Source: a virus. Taken from it: a stretch of 20,492 nt of DNA. The DNA is taken from the IMG/VR virus record IMGVR_UViG_3300006790_000142, positions 1 to 20,492 of that record; one strand, 5' to 3'. A program made the translations under genes and the position numbers. Position 1 is the first letter of the stretch; every line of letters starts with the position of its first letter. A model generated the notes under the pieces. That model did not search any database and was not told the DNA's origin. It saw nothing but the letters and a program-made list of their open reading frames with translations. This document shows, in pieces, positions 3,296 through 14,837 of this stretch.

Positions 3296-4163
3296 AACTA
3301 AACATGTCGTCTAGGGTGATCGTATTGTCTTTGGCGTAAAGCTGCTTCGAATACTTAATATCTAAATGCCTCACAAGCCCGCACGGGTGGATTCGCAGGT
3401 CGCCATCCAGGTTCATCAAAGGAACAACGCGGCGGTGTTCTTGCCCTGGCTTAAGACCTTCGAAAGCGAGACCCATCGAGCTTCTGTCAGCTATAGGCCA
3501 GTTTCGCTTACCGATAACTTCGTAACTTGAGCGTGGGTCACAACTACGACTAGAGATATATTTCTCAGCATCCTGCTGATCGAGAATCATGAGACCAGAG
3601 TAAGGATTACCCAGAGAAGTAAAACCAGCGAAGTTAATATCACAAGGCAAGATCTTGAAACCGCAGTCGTAACCTATTTCGCCCCAGACAGATTTAGTCT
3701 CTCGGTCAAGGTTCCAAGTTTTATAGTTATCGAAAGGTATATCAATATCGTTGAAGTGCTCATACCTGCAGAACCCTGGTTCAAGGTTTAAAGGTCTTAG
3801 TTTCTCTTTGTAGTCCTTCCAGTAACCAAATTGTTCACTACTGAATAACATATCGTTCTCCGAATACATGTAGTAATCGAAGTCCTTATTCAGCACTCTT
3901 CGTGCAAACTCTTCTTTGTGTGCCCAACACAAGTAGTACCCCTCGAACTCAGGCGCAGCTACAACCACGCTGGTTTGCTTTAAGGAGCAGTGCGATCCGA
4001 CAATTAGAGAGAACTCGTCGAGATCATGTTTGTGGTCATGATCTATAAAGAACTCAACGTAGACGTCAATAGGAATAGTTTCGTAAGACCTTAAAACAGC
4101 AAGGGTTTTTTCGATCCGTGCAAGGGGGTCGTGCGCAGTGACTGCGATGTAGATCTTTTCCAT
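3282..4163 (-). CDS. Probable GT-A-fold glycosyltransferase
   Basis: This protein has 293 residues from the ATG at 4163, which overlaps the terminase stop as TGATG. A TTG one codon upstream is the only longer choice. The first 40 residues look like the opening beta-alpha-beta of a GT-A nucleotide-sugar enzyme (KIYIAVTAHDPLARIEKTLA). The stretch HKEEFARRVLNKDFDYYMYS leads into SENDML (residues 101-106), which sits where GT-A enzymes keep the DxD metal-binding motif. No membrane segment is visible. I cannot place it in a CAZy family from sequence alone. Co-translation with terL implies late expression. A non-catalytic relative of GT-A enzymes is possible because the DxD is not canonical. Confidence 0.65.
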   Translation of the reverse strand: MEKIYIAVTAHDPLARIEKTLAVLRSYETIPIDVYVEFFIDHDHKHDLDEFSLIVGSHCSLKQTSVVVAAPEFEGYYLCWAHKEEFARRVLNKDFDYYMYSENDMLFSSEQFGYWKDYKEKLRPLNLEPGFCRYEHFNDIDIPFDNYKTWNLDRETKSVWGEIGYDCGFKILPCDINFAGFTSLGNPYSGLMILDQQDAEKYISSRSCDPRSSYEVIGKRNWPIADRSSMGLAFEGLKPGQEHRRVVPLMNLDGDLRIHPCGLVRHLDIKYSKQLYAKDNTITLDDMFSYGPR

Positions 4164-5683
4164 CAATATTCGATGTTGTAATTACCTCGTTTCTGTAGGT
4201 AAGCGATTAAGTGAGTGTATGCGTCGAGTAGGTCATCGTGAGAAGTAGCACCGACGTTAAGCAACTGATCGTGAAGGGCATCAAACTTCCTGAACTTATT
4301 GAATGTTACTTTCTTGTTTTCTAGTAAACCAAGCGTGCCTCTAAACCGTGCGACTTTGTCACCACGGAATCCCTTGACCTCGTGGATGTGTAAGTTCCCT
4401 AAACCGCGCTCATCTAACAAGACCCTCTTAAGGTCAGCAGCTAGAGAAGCCTGGTAGGCAACCGCTTCAACAACCAGAGTAACGGTTGAATAAGTAGGGA
4501 AATATTGGTCTCCTTGGAGTTCGAGAATGCCCCACTCGACAAGCATGTCGCACAAAAGATCGATTTTTTCGAGGTTGCCAATCGATCGAACCTGATGAGC
4601 GTCGATAATGAAGTACTTATCTTTCAAGCGACCGCCGAGAACGAAGGCTGTGTAATCAGATGTCTCGTTCTTACTTGCCGAAAGGTCAATACCTACAGCG
4701 AGTGAGTCGAATTCAGTCTCCACTTCGCCCTTAATGAGTAAGTCCGGCGAAAGCACAAGATCTGACGTCATGACTGGCTGCTGTTGGTACTGGTACGCAA
4801 AAGCCACCGGGTCGAGTTCTTTCTGTCCTAGTAGATACTTAACACTCCACTGCTCAGGCCAGTAACTGACTGGTTCGCCTTCTTTGTCATAAGTAAGCGC
4901 TTCTTGAGCAACCTGCTTCCACCCCTTCTTCGGAACGAACATAGTTTTGTGGATGTCGAGTGGATGGAACCGTGTACCCAGGCAAATACACCGACCGCCT
5001 TCGAAGACAATCGGTGCAATAACTGAAGACCAGTTGTTGTTCATCTCGTCTCGAACCGCAGGGTTCTTAATATCCGAGCTTGATTTAATAGGGTCATCCA
5101 CGATGACTAGGTGCGCACGTTTAGAGGTAATTGAACCTCGAAGACCAGCTGCACGAAGTGTGAATTCTTCGTCGCCTACTCGCTGGATACCTGCGTAGTC
5201 AAAGTCAATCGACCAACCGATATCGCTCTGCATACCGGCTCGCAGCTTCACTTTCGGAAAGATCTTCTTGAAAGTGGTGGAGTCGATAATCTGCTTAATA
5301 ATTCGACTCTTAGGAATAGCCGTTGCGATGTTGTATGAGCAGTAAATGATCTGAAGAGGGCGCCCATCAGTCGTGTGTCTGCCGATGACCCACGCGGTGA
5401 ATAGGTTCAGAACGGTCGACTTAGCTGAACCTCGCGGGCTGAGAATATCTAAGTTTGGACCAGCTATATCTAACAGATACTTGTTACTTTCTCCTGTAAT
5501 AAGTTCCCTGTGCCACTCAAGCATGTGGGCAGCTGGAGGTTTATCCAAGAGAGTACAGAACGTCAGGAAGTCATTCTGTGCTCTAGAAAATACACTATCG
5601 ATACCAGAGTCGTCTTTATCAACTGCTTTCTGTGCTCTGTTCTTAAGCGCACGACGATATGCAAAGGTCTCTCTACTAGGCAT
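4163..5683 (-). CDS. terL: Terminase large subunit (packaging ATPase and nuclease)
   Basis: This 506-residue motor protein packages DNA into the prohead and cuts the concatemer. The ATPase domain has a Walker A motif SPRGSAKST (residues 82-90), a Walker B motif LVIVDDP (192-198) and a coupling motif around GTRF (236-239). The RNase-H-like nuclease domain has the expected three acidic positions: D333 in GIDLSASKNETSDYTAF, E406 in VVEAVAY, and the D483/D484/D487 cluster in HDDLLDAYTH. Length is normal for the family. It is the first gene of the left minus-strand run and is divergently arranged with the GT4 gene, with only 44 bases between. AGAAG precedes the ATG by two bases. All catalytic motifs are intact, so it should be functional. 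Confidence 0.96.
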   Translation of the reverse strand: MPSRETFAYRRALKNRAQKAVDKDDSGIDSVFSRAQNDFLTFCTLLDKPPAAHMLEWHRELITGESNKYLLDIAGPNLDILSPRGSAKSTVLNLFTAWVIGRHTTDGRPLQIIYCSYNIATAIPKSRIIKQIIDSTTFKKIFPKVKLRAGMQSDIGWSIDFDYAGIQRVGDEEFTLRAAGLRGSITSKRAHLVIVDDPIKSSSDIKNPAVRDEMNNNWSSVIAPIVFEGGRCICLGTRFHPLDIHKTMFVPKKGWKQVAQEALTYDKEGEPVSYWPEQWSVKYLLGQKELDPVAFAYQYQQQPVMTSDLVLSPDLLIKGEVETEFDSLAVGIDLSASKNETSDYTAFVLGGRLKDKYFIIDAHQVRSIGNLEKIDLLCDMLVEWGILELQGDQYFPTYSTVTLVVEAVAYQASLAADLKRVLLDERGLGNLHIHEVKGFRGDKVARFRGTLGLLENKKVTFNKFRKFDALHDQLLNVGATSHDDLLDAYTHLIAYLQKRGNYNIEY

Positions 5684-5727: not shown

Positions 5728-6891
5728 ATGGCAAAGATACTCTGGTACGGAGACGCTGTTTCAAACACAGGGTTTGCTCGTGTGTCGCACAGTGTATTAG
5801 AGCACCTGAGCAAAGACCATGAGGTAGTTGTCTTTGGTATCAACTACACAGGGGATCCTCACGAATACCCTTTTAAGATTTATCCAGCAGCAGCACTTAA
5901 CCCTGCTGATCGATTCGGCGTGGGACGCATCCACCAAGTTATTGAAACAGAAAGACCTGATTTTGTCTTCTGCCTTAACGATCTCTGGATCGTCAATCAA
6001 GTGTGGGAGCGAGTGCACCTCCTCAAGAGCGCACTGAAATTTAAATTTATTGCTTATTTCCCCACCGATTCGGAGTGGTACCCACTCTCGATGCTTCGGT
6101 ACATCAAAGACTGGGATTTCGCGATTACGTTCACGATCCAGCAAGCACAGCGCATCATGGCGCATGGTGTTCAACCGAAGAAGCTTGGGGTTATCCCCCA
6201 CGGTTTAGACGAAGGTAAGTTCTTCGAGATGGACAAAGCCCAGGCACGAAAAGCGCTGGGGCTCCCCTTAGATAAATTCATCGTCTTTAACGGAAACCGT
6301 AACCAGCCCCGCAAGCTGATTGATCAAACGATCAAAGCTTTTGCTGAGTTCGCTGTAGGTAAGAAAGACGTCATGCTCTTCCTAAACATGGGAGAGAAAG
6401 ACCTGGGTTGGGCTGTAAGGGAACTGTTCGAAACTGAGATGCGTCGTAGAGGAGAAGATCCCACGCAGAAACTCGTCCTTACGCCAAACATGAATTACAT
6501 GAAGGCTCCCCCGGACAGTTACCTGAATACCATTTACAACGCTGTGGACGTCGGCATCAACACCGCTAATGGTGAAGGTTGGGGTCTTGTGCCGTTCGAA
6601 CACGCCTTGTGTAGGAAACCTCAAGTGGTTCCCGAACACACTTCATGTAAAGACATCTGGAAAGGCAAAGGTCTTTTGATCAAGATCGGCGCGTGGATTA
6701 CAGACAAGGATCTTGGAGTAGAGCGAGGAATTATCGACTTCAAGCACGCAGCGGAACTACTCAACGATCTTTACGAAGACGAAGAGTATCGCGAGATGAT
6801 CGCAAATCAGTGTTACGAAGTTACGCAAAACCCCTCCTATAGGTGGGAGAAAGTTGCTGAAGGATTTACCAAAGCGATGGAGGTGATCTGA
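5728..6891 (+). CDS. GT4-family (GT-B fold) glycosyltransferase
   Basis: This 387-residue protein has the two Rossmann halves of a GT-B retaining glycosyltransferase. The N-terminal half has the glycine loop SNTGFARVS (residues 12-20). The central linker has VIPHGLDEGKF (155-165). The C-terminal donor site has the diagnostic E-x7-E motif, E283 to E291 in GEGWGLVPFEHA. The first half reads WYGDAVSNTGFA, an arrangement seen in phage and bacterial GT4 proteins. No signal peptide is present. It is on the opposite strand from the virion genes. Its stop overlaps the next ATG (TGATG at 6889-6893), so it and the propeller protein form a two-gene operon. No clear Shine-Dalgarno sequence precedes the ATG. 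Donor and acceptor are unknown. Confidence 0.88.
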   Translation: MAKILWYGDAVSNTGFARVSHSVLEHLSKDHEVVVFGINYTGDPHEYPFKIYPAAALNPADRFGVGRIHQVIETERPDFVFCLNDLWIVNQVWERVHLLKSALKFKFIAYFPTDSEWYPLSMLRYIKDWDFAITFTIQQAQRIMAHGVQPKKLGVIPHGLDEGKFFEMDKAQARKALGLPLDKFIVFNGNRNQPRKLIDQTIKAFAEFAVGKKDVMLFLNMGEKDLGWAVRELFETEMRRRGEDPTQKLVLTPNMNYMKAPPDSYLNTIYNAVDVGINTANGEGWGLVPFEHALCRKPQVVPEHTSCKDIWKGKGLLIKIGAWITDKDLGVERGIIDFKHAAELLNDLYEDEEYREMIANQCYEVTQNPSYRWEKVAEGFTKAMEVI

Positions 6892-12472: not shown

Positions 12473-13243
12473 TTAGAAACCGAGGTGTTTAGAGCGGACG
12501 AAGCCTAAGTCGTAAGTCGTGAAACTTACGGGCATATCCGGCAAGTTAAAAGGAGTCTTATTGGTCACGCCATCAACATGCGCTTGCCAGGCTTCGTTCC
12601 ACTTGAGATGAAGATAACGCTTGTTCATCTCGTGTGCTCTGTGTACACCTTGAGCAATAGCCGGTTCAGACCTCCAGGTCTGTGAACCATCCGAATAGTC
12701 GTTTTTCTTGGTTCCGTGGTAGTAACCGTGGTCCAGACTAAGAACACGTTTCACATCGTCATGTATGAAGCGCATACCGTAATCCATATCCTCGCAATAG
12801 CCAGGGTATAGGTTTTCATCAAATAGACCGTAACGTTCAACCATCCAGTCTTTAAGGAGAAAGATATCCCAACCACCGCCGTTGCCGTGGACGATACCTA
12901 CCTCTTTATCCTGAGCTTTCTCATTCATCTCCTTCAGGAACCCTGATTCGAACTGAACGTCGTGGTTAGCGATGACCCAGTAAGGAGCTTTCATAAAGCT
13001 CTTGATAATCAAGTTCCATGCGCCACTACACCCGACATTCGCAGGCAGGTGACAGACGTGGACGTTCTCGACGTACTTATTAGGGATCTCCTTAAGCAAG
13101 TCGACCTGATCGTCGATCTGCCCTCTTCCGTTGTTATTGAACACAACAAAGTGCTCAACAGGGTAATCGATGCTCATGAAGAGCCGATGCAGCCAAAAAG
13201 GAGTATTTACGATCGCAGTCCCGATAACAGGGATTTTATTCAT
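12473..13243 (-). CDS. GT2-family glycosyltransferase
   Basis: This 256-residue GT-A inverting glycosyltransferase resembles the rhamnosyltransferase-like branch of GT2. Residues 5-12 form the first strand (PVIGTAIV). HLPANVGCSGAWN (65-77) is the conserved 'N-x-G-x-x-G/A-x-N' nucleotide-sugar loop. NHDVQF (93-98) occupies the DxD position. YCEDMDYGMR (149-158) is the ED catalytic-base motif. No membrane segment is visible, so it is probably cytoplasmic. It leads the methyltransferase and XRE genes in a tight run. A 7-bp inverted repeat lies just upstream of its ATG. Confidence 0.85.
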   Translation of the reverse strand: MNKIPVIGTAIVNTPFWLHRLFMSIDYPVEHFVVFNNNGRGQIDDQVDLLKEIPNKYVENVHVCHLPANVGCSGAWNLIIKSFMKAPYWVIANHDVQFESGFLKEMNEKAQDKEVGIVHGNGGGWDIFLLKDWMVERYGLFDENLYPGYCEDMDYGMRFIHDDVKRVLSLDHGYYHGTKKNDYSDGSQTWRSEPAIAQGVHRAHEMNKRYLHLKWNEAWQAHVDGVTNKTPFNLPDMPVSFTTYDLGFVRSKHLGF

Positions 13244-13501: not shown

Positions 13502-13894
13502 TCAGATACTAATATGCTTCCAGCGTCGTCCTGTATCGATCTCATAGATTGTGTGGTAAGTCACACCATACTCACTAGCGATATACATTCTCTTCCTGCC
13601 TTCCTTAAGCAGGGTTTTAATTCTGATGACATCATCCTCAGTGAGCCTAGCGTTACAGTTTCCGCTACCTCTAGTCTTCTCAGACGTGAACATCTGAGGG
13701 AGATTCTTCTTGCACTCCTTACAGACGTGGTTATCCCCTTTACGAGTGTTCTGGGAGTAACGAAGCAGTCTGACTCCACATCCACTGCAGGTCAGCTCTA
13801 ACTTTCGCTTTCCAAAAACAATTCCAGCGTTGTGCATCTCCCAACGCTTATCTGCTGCTTCTTTGGCTTTGCTGGGTTTGTCGAAGTTTTTCAT
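13502..13894 (-). CDS. Zinc-ribbon plus helix-turn-helix DNA-binding protein
   Basis: This 130-residue protein has an N-terminal basic segment (KPSKAKEAADKRW). A likely zinc ribbon follows with CxxC pairs C36/C39 and C58/C61, 18 residues apart. A C-terminal helix-turn-helix spans residues 84-125 (LTEDDVIRIKTLLKEG, IASEYGVTYHTIYEI, GRRWKHI). The C-terminal block is the DNA-binding part seen at the end of many phage HNH and homing-type endonucleases. The H-N-H nuclease residues are absent here, so it is more likely a regulator or a nuclease remnant. It starts 11 bases downstream of the tRNA 3' end and may be co-transcribed with it. Confidence 0.65.
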   Translation of the reverse strand: MKNFDKPSKAKEAADKRWEMHNAGIVFGKRKLELTCSGCGVRLLRYSQNTRKGDNHVCKECKKNLPQMFTSEKTRGSGNCNARLTEDDVIRIKTLLKEGRKRMYIASEYGVTYHTIYEIDTGRRWKHISI

Positions 13895-13905: not shown

Positions 13906-13982
13906 TGGTACCCGCTGTCGGATTCGAACCGACACTGGACGAGGCTTAAACTCGGCGTCTCTGCCAATTGGACTAAGCGGGC
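13906..13982 (-). tRNA. tRNA with anticodon UAA, short variable arm
   Basis: The minus strand folds as a full cloverleaf. The acceptor arms are GCCCGCT and AGCGGGT, with discriminator A and encoded CCA. The D-arm stem is GTCC/AGAC. The anticodon arm is CCGAG-TTTAAGC-CTCGT. The variable region is five bases (CCAGT), and the T-arm is GTCGG-TTCGAAT-CCGAC. The anticodon at loop positions 3-5 is TAA, which would read UUA (leucine). Two stem ends are mismatched (the inner pair of the D stem and the outer pair of the anticodon stem). The short variable arm is class I, whereas leucine tRNAs normally have a long variable arm. The amino acid identity is therefore not certain. Confidence 0.88.
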
Positions 13983-14011
13983 TTGTTAGAGGGATGACCA
14001 CAGAAGGAATC

Positions 14012-14093: not shown

Positions 14094-14837
14094 GTGGCAG
14101 CTTCCTTTAAAGACCTGATGGGTCAGCTCAAAGAAGACACAAGAGTGAAAGTCGAGAAGCAAGTACAAGCTGTGCCAGTGATGGAAGGCAAGAAAAAACT
14201 GGACGACAAATATAACTTCACCGAAGGCTGGTATGACGCACTGCTAAACAGCGAATACCTCATCCAACACAACAACGAAGGCCAAACAATCGATCTTATG
14301 CCTGAAGAGGCAAAGACGATCGTGGAGATTGGCTGCTACGAAGGTGCTTCTTCTTGTTTCTGGTCTGATTATTACCTCGATCACGAAGATTCTCGCCTAA
14401 TCACCATCGATCCCTTCACCGGTAGTGAAGAACATCTCCGAGATCCTGGAAAATATGCAGGTTTGAGCACTCTGGAGACCACAGCTCGTTCAAACATCGC
14501 AAAATCTAAGAATGCAGGGAAAGTTGAGGTCCTCAAAGGGTACTCACACCTGATTTATCCCCACCTCTTCCACCGTTATGGCGAAGAACCTTGGATCGAT
14601 ATCCTCTATATCGATGGGGCACATGATTCGACTTCGGTTGCTCGTGATGTTTGCCTGTATGTGCCTATGGTTAAGCCTGGGGGCGTGGTGTTCTTTGACG
14701 ATTATGCCCACCCCGACGTCCGACGAGCCGTTGACATGTCTCTCAATGCTTTTGCAGCCTTCGATCTAGCGATCTTTACAGGTTGGCAGCTGGTGGGAGT
14801 AGTCAGCGACTACAAAAGATCCCACGGAGAGGAGTAA
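14094..14837 (+). CDS. Class I methyltransferase, Methyltransf_24 type
   Basis: This protein has 247 residues from a GTG at 14094. An ATG at 14118 (residue 9) is the alternative start. The SAM-binding motif is IVEIGCYEGASS (residues 76-87), and SRLITIDPF (100-108) holds the acidic end of beta-2. DILYIDGAHDSTSVARDV (169-186) and KPGGVVFFDDYAHPDVRRAV (194-213) are the 'YIDG-x-H-x-Y...L-x-x-G-G...D-D' blocks of Methyltransf_24 (PF13578). Such enzymes are frequent in glycan or small-molecule modification clusters. It leads a three-gene plus-strand operon in which each stop overlaps the next ATG. Its direction is opposite to the virion genes. Confidence 0.82.
   Translation: MAASFKDLMGQLKEDTRVKVEKQVQAVPVMEGKKKLDDKYNFTEGWYDALLNSEYLIQHNNEGQTIDLMPEEAKTIVEIGCYEGASSCFWSDYYLDHEDSRLITIDPFTGSEEHLRDPGKYAGLSTLETTARSNIAKSKNAGKVEVLKGYSHLIYPHLFHRYGEEPWIDILYIDGAHDSTSVARDVCLYVPMVKPGGVVFFDDYAHPDVRRAVDMSLNAFAAFDLAIFTGWQLVGVVSDYKRSHGEE

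Follow-up and report, generated by a model that had tools for sequence, protein, structure and literature searches.

Leucine tRNAs are normally class II molecules with a long variable arm, and reviews assign such an arm to every bacterial tRNALeu; the existence of a large, natural arm-less class in phages and Actinobacteria contradicts this view. Leucylation in E. coli needs A73, the A15-U48 pair, G18G19, and A20a (summarised in PMC9976931), and both the sequence and the folding of the long arm are dispensable for E. coli leucyl-tRNA synthetase (LeuRS), arm-less variants staying active (PMC9976931). The natural arm-less class, mycobacteria included, keeps these determinants, which were derived by mutagenesis in E. 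coli, and so provides a natural test of the rules. One short-variable-loop tRNALeu(UAG) has been mentioned for mycobacteria (PMC6582537), and we found no paper treating short-arm tRNALeu as a class in the open literature searched; the short-arm type is common and hardly described.

We analyzed a viral fragment of 20,492 bases (the window), whose sole tRNA gene is a tRNA-Leu(UAA) with the following parts:

13906-13982, minus strand (read from 13982 to 13906): complete class I (short variable arm) tRNA-Leu(UAA), 77 nt including the encoded CCA
13946-13948, minus strand: anticodon UAA, in the loop UUUAAGC (13944-13950; U32, G37, C38)
13934-13938, minus strand: variable region CCAGU, 5 nt, with U48 at its end pairing with A15 (direct reading)

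ARAGORN calls tRNA-Leu(taa) on the minus strand at 13906-13982, and Rfam RF00005 matches the same region with 48.9 bits (E = 6.5e-8; gathering score, 29). By direct reading, the acceptor stem is GCCCGCU/AGCGGGU with one G-U pair, and U8 and A9 come next; the D stem, GUC/GAC, has 3 bp with C13·A22, and the D loop is AAUUGGCAG. The anticodon stem, CCGAG/CUCGU, carries a C27·U43 mismatch. The T arm is GUCGG-UUCGAAU-CCGAC, whose loop (UUCGAAU) contains the partners U54-A58, U55, and C56; the acceptor and T stems are intact, and the molecule ends in A73 followed by the encoded CCA. The sequence-only reading of this DNA had claimed a UAA anticodon, A73, an encoded CCA, and a five-base variable region, all of which are confirmed by ARAGORN, Rfam, and direct reading. 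Because the variable region, CCAGU, has 5 nt and class II tRNAs have at least 10, the window tRNA is class I by architecture and is not filed as class II. The computed energy of the cloverleaf, for the unmodified sequence, is −22.3 kcal/mol versus −25.7 kcal/mol for the free minimum, a difference that weighs neither for nor against the fold, and a search for a σ70-like promoter near the tRNA found none. A tRNA occupies the same place in the diverged relative L030 and in L079, arguing that the window tRNA is not a chance fold.

To score leucine identity, we parsed 1,599 distinct tRNAs from fetched loci and used a set made up of A73, A14, A15, U48, a 4-nt 20-22 stretch, and A20a, to which A22 was then added. 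Without A22, the set is present in 163 of 176 long-arm Leu tRNAs; among Leu tRNAs whose variable region is <10 nt, it is present in 169 of 190 from phages and 85 of 87 from bacteria. Non-leucine tRNAs carry it in 6 of about 1,150 cases. With A22, it is found in 412 Leu tRNAs and in none of the about 1,150 others compared; A73 itself occurs in 99-100% of the Leu tRNAs compared. The window tRNA has A73, A14, A15-U48, G18G19, A20a, and A22, and the L030 tRNA likewise keeps all determinants. Leucine determinants combined with a variable region of 3-6 nt, A9, and C13 characterize the class I tRNALeu type, and the window tRNA has them all. The A9/C13 combination occurs in 203 short-arm and 0 long-arm Leu tRNAs, and is frequent in other class I tRNAs too. 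A minority of short-arm Leu tRNAs (n = 22) retains G9 and G13, which suggests that tRNALeu may have lost its arm more than once.

A whole-body composition classifier trained on long-arm Leu tRNAs (leave-one-out accuracy, 80% overall) was dropped as support for leucine identity: it called as Leu only 58 of 190 phage and 18 of 87 bacterial short-arm Leu tRNAs, and it is indecisive because the bodies of short-arm Leu tRNAs are class I-like. Leucine identity therefore rests on the determinants. By published tRNAscan-SE scores, the Leu_TAA tRNA of phage Sf14 fits Leu best (60.2; PMC12482277); phage Sf13 aligns with the window tRNA without a long gap, and L006 carries a 79-nt short-arm form. We read the window tRNA as a genuine leucine tRNA built on a class I scaffold, a reading that is well supported. 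That the gene encodes a slimmed-down leucine tRNA still used by LeuRS was one of two options offered by the sequence-only reading, and it gains support from the full determinant set, from the E. coli work (PMC9976931), and from the Actinobacteria sampled. A leucine identity set would have been grafted onto a class I core (5-nt variable region, A9, C13). Since bacterial LeuRS has no need for the long arm, it should charge the window tRNA with leucine, and the phage would gain its own leucine tRNA supply for its UUA codons in infected cells; UUA accounts for 76 of the 494 leucine codons in the genes counted.

Some match to the window tRNA is present in 559 INPHARED records, including those of Felix O1 and its relatives, Streptomyces and Pseudomonas phages, and cyanophages; the phage matches that were fetched are tRNALeu genes of 73-79 nt with the anticodon UAA, UAG, or CAA. 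A bacterial scan that covered one genome per species gave at least 118 hits. Nearly all of the matches listed are in Actinobacteria, and the genera among them are Mycobacterium, Nocardia, Rhodococcus, Gordonia, Arthrobacter, Corynebacterium, and others. The actinobacterial class I tRNALeu(UAA) gene is single-copy and mostly the lone tRNA gene in a locus of up to 8 kb. In four actinobacterial genomes it is the only UAA-anticodon tRNA recognised, other pattern hits in these genomes having the spacing of another tRNA or being no tRNA (one checked); in 12 of 14 further genomes, which are drafts so that this count is not absolute, it is the only pattern match. The short-arm type appears to be the only UAA-anticodon tRNA, and the only UUA reader, in the Actinobacteria sampled. 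Many related phages and hosts thus carry the same short-arm leucine tRNA, a finding that the sequence-only reading had named as one that would count against it; the rarity it implied was overstated, the type being widespread in phages and Actinobacteria.

Among the phage tRNAs fetched, tRNATyr is long-armed in 39 cases and short-armed in 0, tRNASer in 89 and 2, and tRNALeu is a mixture of long and short forms for the anticodons UAA, UAG, CAA, GAG, and AAG; UAA patterns served to choose the loci, which biases the UAA ratio, and the other anticodons, Ser, and Tyr are unselected. Arm loss among class II tRNAs is confined to leucine. The Ser and Tyr tRNAs of the same phages remain long-armed, which would be expected if SerRS and TyrRS depend on the arm. 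Pattern counts of short versus long Leu(UAA) in IMG/VR were 32 and 21, and at least 120 each in a further search; we dropped this ratio as a measure of abundance, and it shows only that both forms are common. L541 has 22 pattern positions in common with the window tRNA but turned out to carry an unrelated Leu(UAG).

Several fetched loci are of separate interest. The bacterial loci, L149-L266, show the lone class I tRNALeu(UAA) in many Actinobacteria, and L165, L173, and L188 (cyanobacterial genomes) and L216 (a planctomycete) hold arrays of 12-32 tRNA genes that include a class I tRNALeu and resemble phage arrays. At 3201-3287 of L023, ARAGORN calls a tRNA-Pyl(cta) within a viral tRNA array; it is possibly an amber-suppressor tRNA. 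The Campylobacter phage A132 record (L039) has the taxonomy Ounavirinae and a tRNALeu nearly that of Felix O1; its host may be mislabelled.

Bacterial short-arm Leu(UAA) genes mostly have C32/A37/A38 (68 of 76 distinct genes), and the window tRNA has U32/G37/C38, in common with L030, L079, L524, and L532. Among phage Leu(UAA) genes, the loop UUUAAGC occurs in 15 distinct ones with a short arm and 5 with a long arm; none of the 76 distinct bacterial short-arm genes has it. TrmL requires an A36A37A38 motif (PMC9976931); G37/C38 removes this motif and the anticodon stem has its C27·U43 mismatch, so decoding might be weaker. The loop change might protect the gene from a linked endonuclease, or the tRNA from a nuclease.

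We used the large terminase subunit (TerL) to find relatives of the window and as a fixed point for synteny; the tRNA is flanked by a methyltransferase gene on one side and a short ORF on the other:

4163-5683, minus strand: large terminase subunit
14094-14837, plus strand: methyltransferase gene (Methyltransf_24), divergently oriented, which forms the conserved left edge of the tRNA locus
13502-13894, minus strand: 130-amino-acid ORF starting 12 nt past the tRNA, with cysteine pairs, a helix-turn-helix, and a weak PHROG match to endonucleases

No close DNA relative of the window was found in INPHARED. Among cultured phages, Synechococcus phage S-EIV1 has the nearest TerL (44% identity), with all others further away, and the host is therefore likely a picocyanobacterium. 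Among the best 80 of 383 TerL relatives in IMG/VR, which were fetched, 24 loci have a tRNA; it is always Leu(UAA) and always in the same place. Of these, 22 are long-arm genes (82-88 nt), and the other two, in L079 and L133, are short-arm. The order at the locus is the divergent methyltransferase gene, tRNALeu(UAA), and then the same glycosyltransferase gene, and the tRNAs of the window, L030, L079, and L133 lie between homologous flanks. Because short-arm carriers fall in three places within long-arm groups in the TerL and glycosyltransferase trees, long- and short-arm tRNALeu(UAA) appear to be interchangeable in these phages: in this lineage, the tRNALeu(UAA) at the locus is either of the ordinary long-arm kind or short-armed. 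A homologue of the 130-amino-acid ORF (70% identity) follows a long-arm tRNA in L068; we rejected this ORF as an HNH enzyme, since Pfam finds no HNH domain in it and its PHROG matches are weak. The window also has three glycosyltransferase genes within 20 kb, beside the terminase (1647-2459, 5728-6891, and 12473-13243), belonging to Glyco_transf_17, a phage glycosyltransferase family, and Glycos_transf_2.

An exchange of one form for the other is preserved in L079. This locus matches its long-arm relative L075 at 93% over positions 401-1261 and at 91% from position 1790 onward; the 528 nt between (in L079) contain an L030-like leader, an HNH gene, and a complete short-arm tRNALeu. Position 1790 corresponds to loop position 32|33 of the resident tRNA, and the next 61 nt are identical to L076: the 5′ half of the resident long-arm gene has been replaced, and its 3′ half persists as a remnant. 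After its tRNA, the donor-like L030 reads TATTAA, and the resident loop is CTTAAAA, placing the join within the TTAA common to both. The junction is seen in a single contig; a simple chimera of two contigs is unlikely, because the sequence is of the L075/L076 lineage both on the methyltransferase side and downstream. This junction is the one observation that points to a cut in the anticodon loop.

The L079 HNH product matches HNH_3 with 22.8 bits, just under the Pfam cutoff of 24.8. In 14 of 14 viral loci (L079's own contig included), the homologous HNH gene terminates at or within a tRNALeu(UAA) gene, and a tRNALeu(UAA) of 74-77 nt directly follows. Most of these frames run into the tRNA and stop on tRNA bases 8-10 (UAG or UGA; L523-L536), so that 5′ processing of the tRNA would sever the stop codon from the HNH message; feedback on endonuclease expression by this route is possible. 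More distant HNH relatives, in Klebsiella phage KP13-16 and Salmonella phage RUS_R7, lie just before or overlap a long-arm tRNALeu(UAA), which argues that the family is linked to tRNALeu(UAA) and not to the short arm as such; still more distant relatives have no tRNALeu directly after them. We dropped the HNH family as a general partner of short-arm tRNALeu on account of these long-arm neighbours and because, among independently fetched loci, only L079 has it. The window contains a probable trace of the same gene:

13983-13999, minus strand: GGTCATCCCTCTAACAA, 17 nt directly before the tRNA, which probably derive from the 3′ end of an HNH homing-type endonuclease gene

Continued into the tRNA, the frame gives GHPSNKPA and a stop at tRNA U8A9G10, the same residues and stop as in L079. 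The 17 nt are identical to the end of the HNH gene at 15 of 17 positions in L079 and 14 of 17 in L532, and no other match among the 40,952 window positions is as good. The window would thus retain only the last codons of the gene, which is intact, ending at or in the tRNA, in L079, L532, and others. Short as it is, this stretch is probably what remains of a lost HNH gene.

We consider it very likely that the window encodes a functional, UUA-reading phage leucine tRNA charged by LeuRS. The short form was probably acquired through recombination along with an HNH gene of homing-endonuclease type, of which the window has only a trace; breaks made by the HNH enzyme in tRNALeu(UAA) genes would promote replacement by the linked copy, much as SegB favours inheritance of the T4 tRNA region (PMC13096335, citing work from 2008). 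Long and short forms trade places at one locus, and a homing-type endonuclease gene sits at the junction, which offers a concrete route for phage tRNA swapping. A more elaborate version is possible, although we are inclined to doubt it: the HNH gene and tRNALeu(UAA) might form a self-repairing selfish cassette that cuts a competitor's tRNALeu(UAA) in the anticodon loop, replaces the broken half, and supplies a cut-immune class I tRNALeu. Immunity would then come from the changed sequence (short arm, U32/G37/C38), UUA decoding would never be lost, and the window would represent a late stage, its endonuclease decayed and its tRNA left.

Three other explanations bear on the tRNA. The sequence-only reading had raised the possibility that an anticodon change turned another tRNA into a UUA reader; some other class I tRNA (for example, of the Phe, Val, Met, or Lys type) mutated to UAA would read UUA as a different amino acid. 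The body of the window tRNA beyond the leucine positions is indeed class I-like, and the classifier often places short-arm Leu bodies in other isotypes. However, the leucine determinants, which lie outside the anticodon, are all present, and no non-leucine tRNA was found to have the full set including A22; a synthetase that recognises the anticodon would face A35A36, and the alanine mark G3-U70 is absent, the window tRNA having C3-G70. In the Actinobacteria sampled, which read UUA as leucine, the same type is, moreover, apparently the only tRNA with a UAA anticodon, and we regard a reassigned UUA reader as highly improbable. It is also improbable, if somewhat less so, that the gene is a decayed pseudogene, a long-arm tRNALeu that has lost its arm and fallen out of use. 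Such decay might account for the C27·U43 mismatch in the window, a T-stem mismatch in the L030 tRNA, and the lack of an obvious promoter, but not for the retention of all determinants in both the window and L030, the conservation of the gene at the same locus between relatives, or the intact acceptor and T stems of the window tRNA. Its body is unlike those of the sister long-arm genes, which argues for replacement rather than a trimmed copy.

In the third explanation, the short arm would itself be an adaptation that lets phage tRNAs escape defence nucleases cutting class II variable loops: Septu and retron-Eco7 cut the variable loop of tRNATyr, the T5 tRNATyr, with its distinctive variable loop, resists (PMC13096335), and arm loss is frequent in phage tRNALeu. 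We think this unlikely, since we know of no nuclease here that cuts the tRNALeu long arm, most relatives of the window still have long-arm forms, and the same short-arm type is normal in Actinobacteria.

Among known systems, the actinobacterial class I tRNALeu(UAA) of Mycobacterium, Nocardia, Arthrobacter, and Corynebacterium is like the window tRNA in its length (75-78 nt), 5-nt variable region, A9, C13, A15-U48, and A73; it shares the AAUUGG D loop, and its variable region usually ends in AGU or GUU. It differs in being chromosomal and single-copy and in its loop, CUUAAAA with A37 in place of UUUAAGC with G37. The short-arm tRNALeu(UAA) genes of Felix O1, Synechococcus phage S-CREM1, and Rhizobium phage RHph_I1_18, annotated as tRNA-Leu, have the architecture and determinants of the window tRNA but differ in their stems, and that of Felix O1 lies within a tRNA cluster, whereas the window has no other tRNA. 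Human mitochondrial tRNALeu(UUR) likewise lacks a long arm and is leucylated through A73 and A14 (PMC9976931), but it has a mitochondrial synthetase, a loosely folded anticodon branch, and an independent origin. The tRNALeu(UAG) of mycobacterial tRNA clusters has a short variable loop, and an HNH endonuclease gene is reported within such clusters (PMC6582537); its anticodon is different, and it is described only in passing. SegB of T4/T6 is encoded by a free-standing homing endonuclease gene that adjoins phage tRNA genes and favours inheritance of the tRNA region, and the 3′ end of segB is reported to share microhomology with the 5′ end of the tRNATyr gene (PMC13096335). SegB is, however, of the GIY-YIG kind and acts on a tRNA array, whereas the HNH gene here, of which the window has only a trace, terminates within a single tRNALeu(UAA). 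The exchange of tRNA class at one locus and the HNH cassette look new, and the tRNA itself is a member of a widespread, little-described class.
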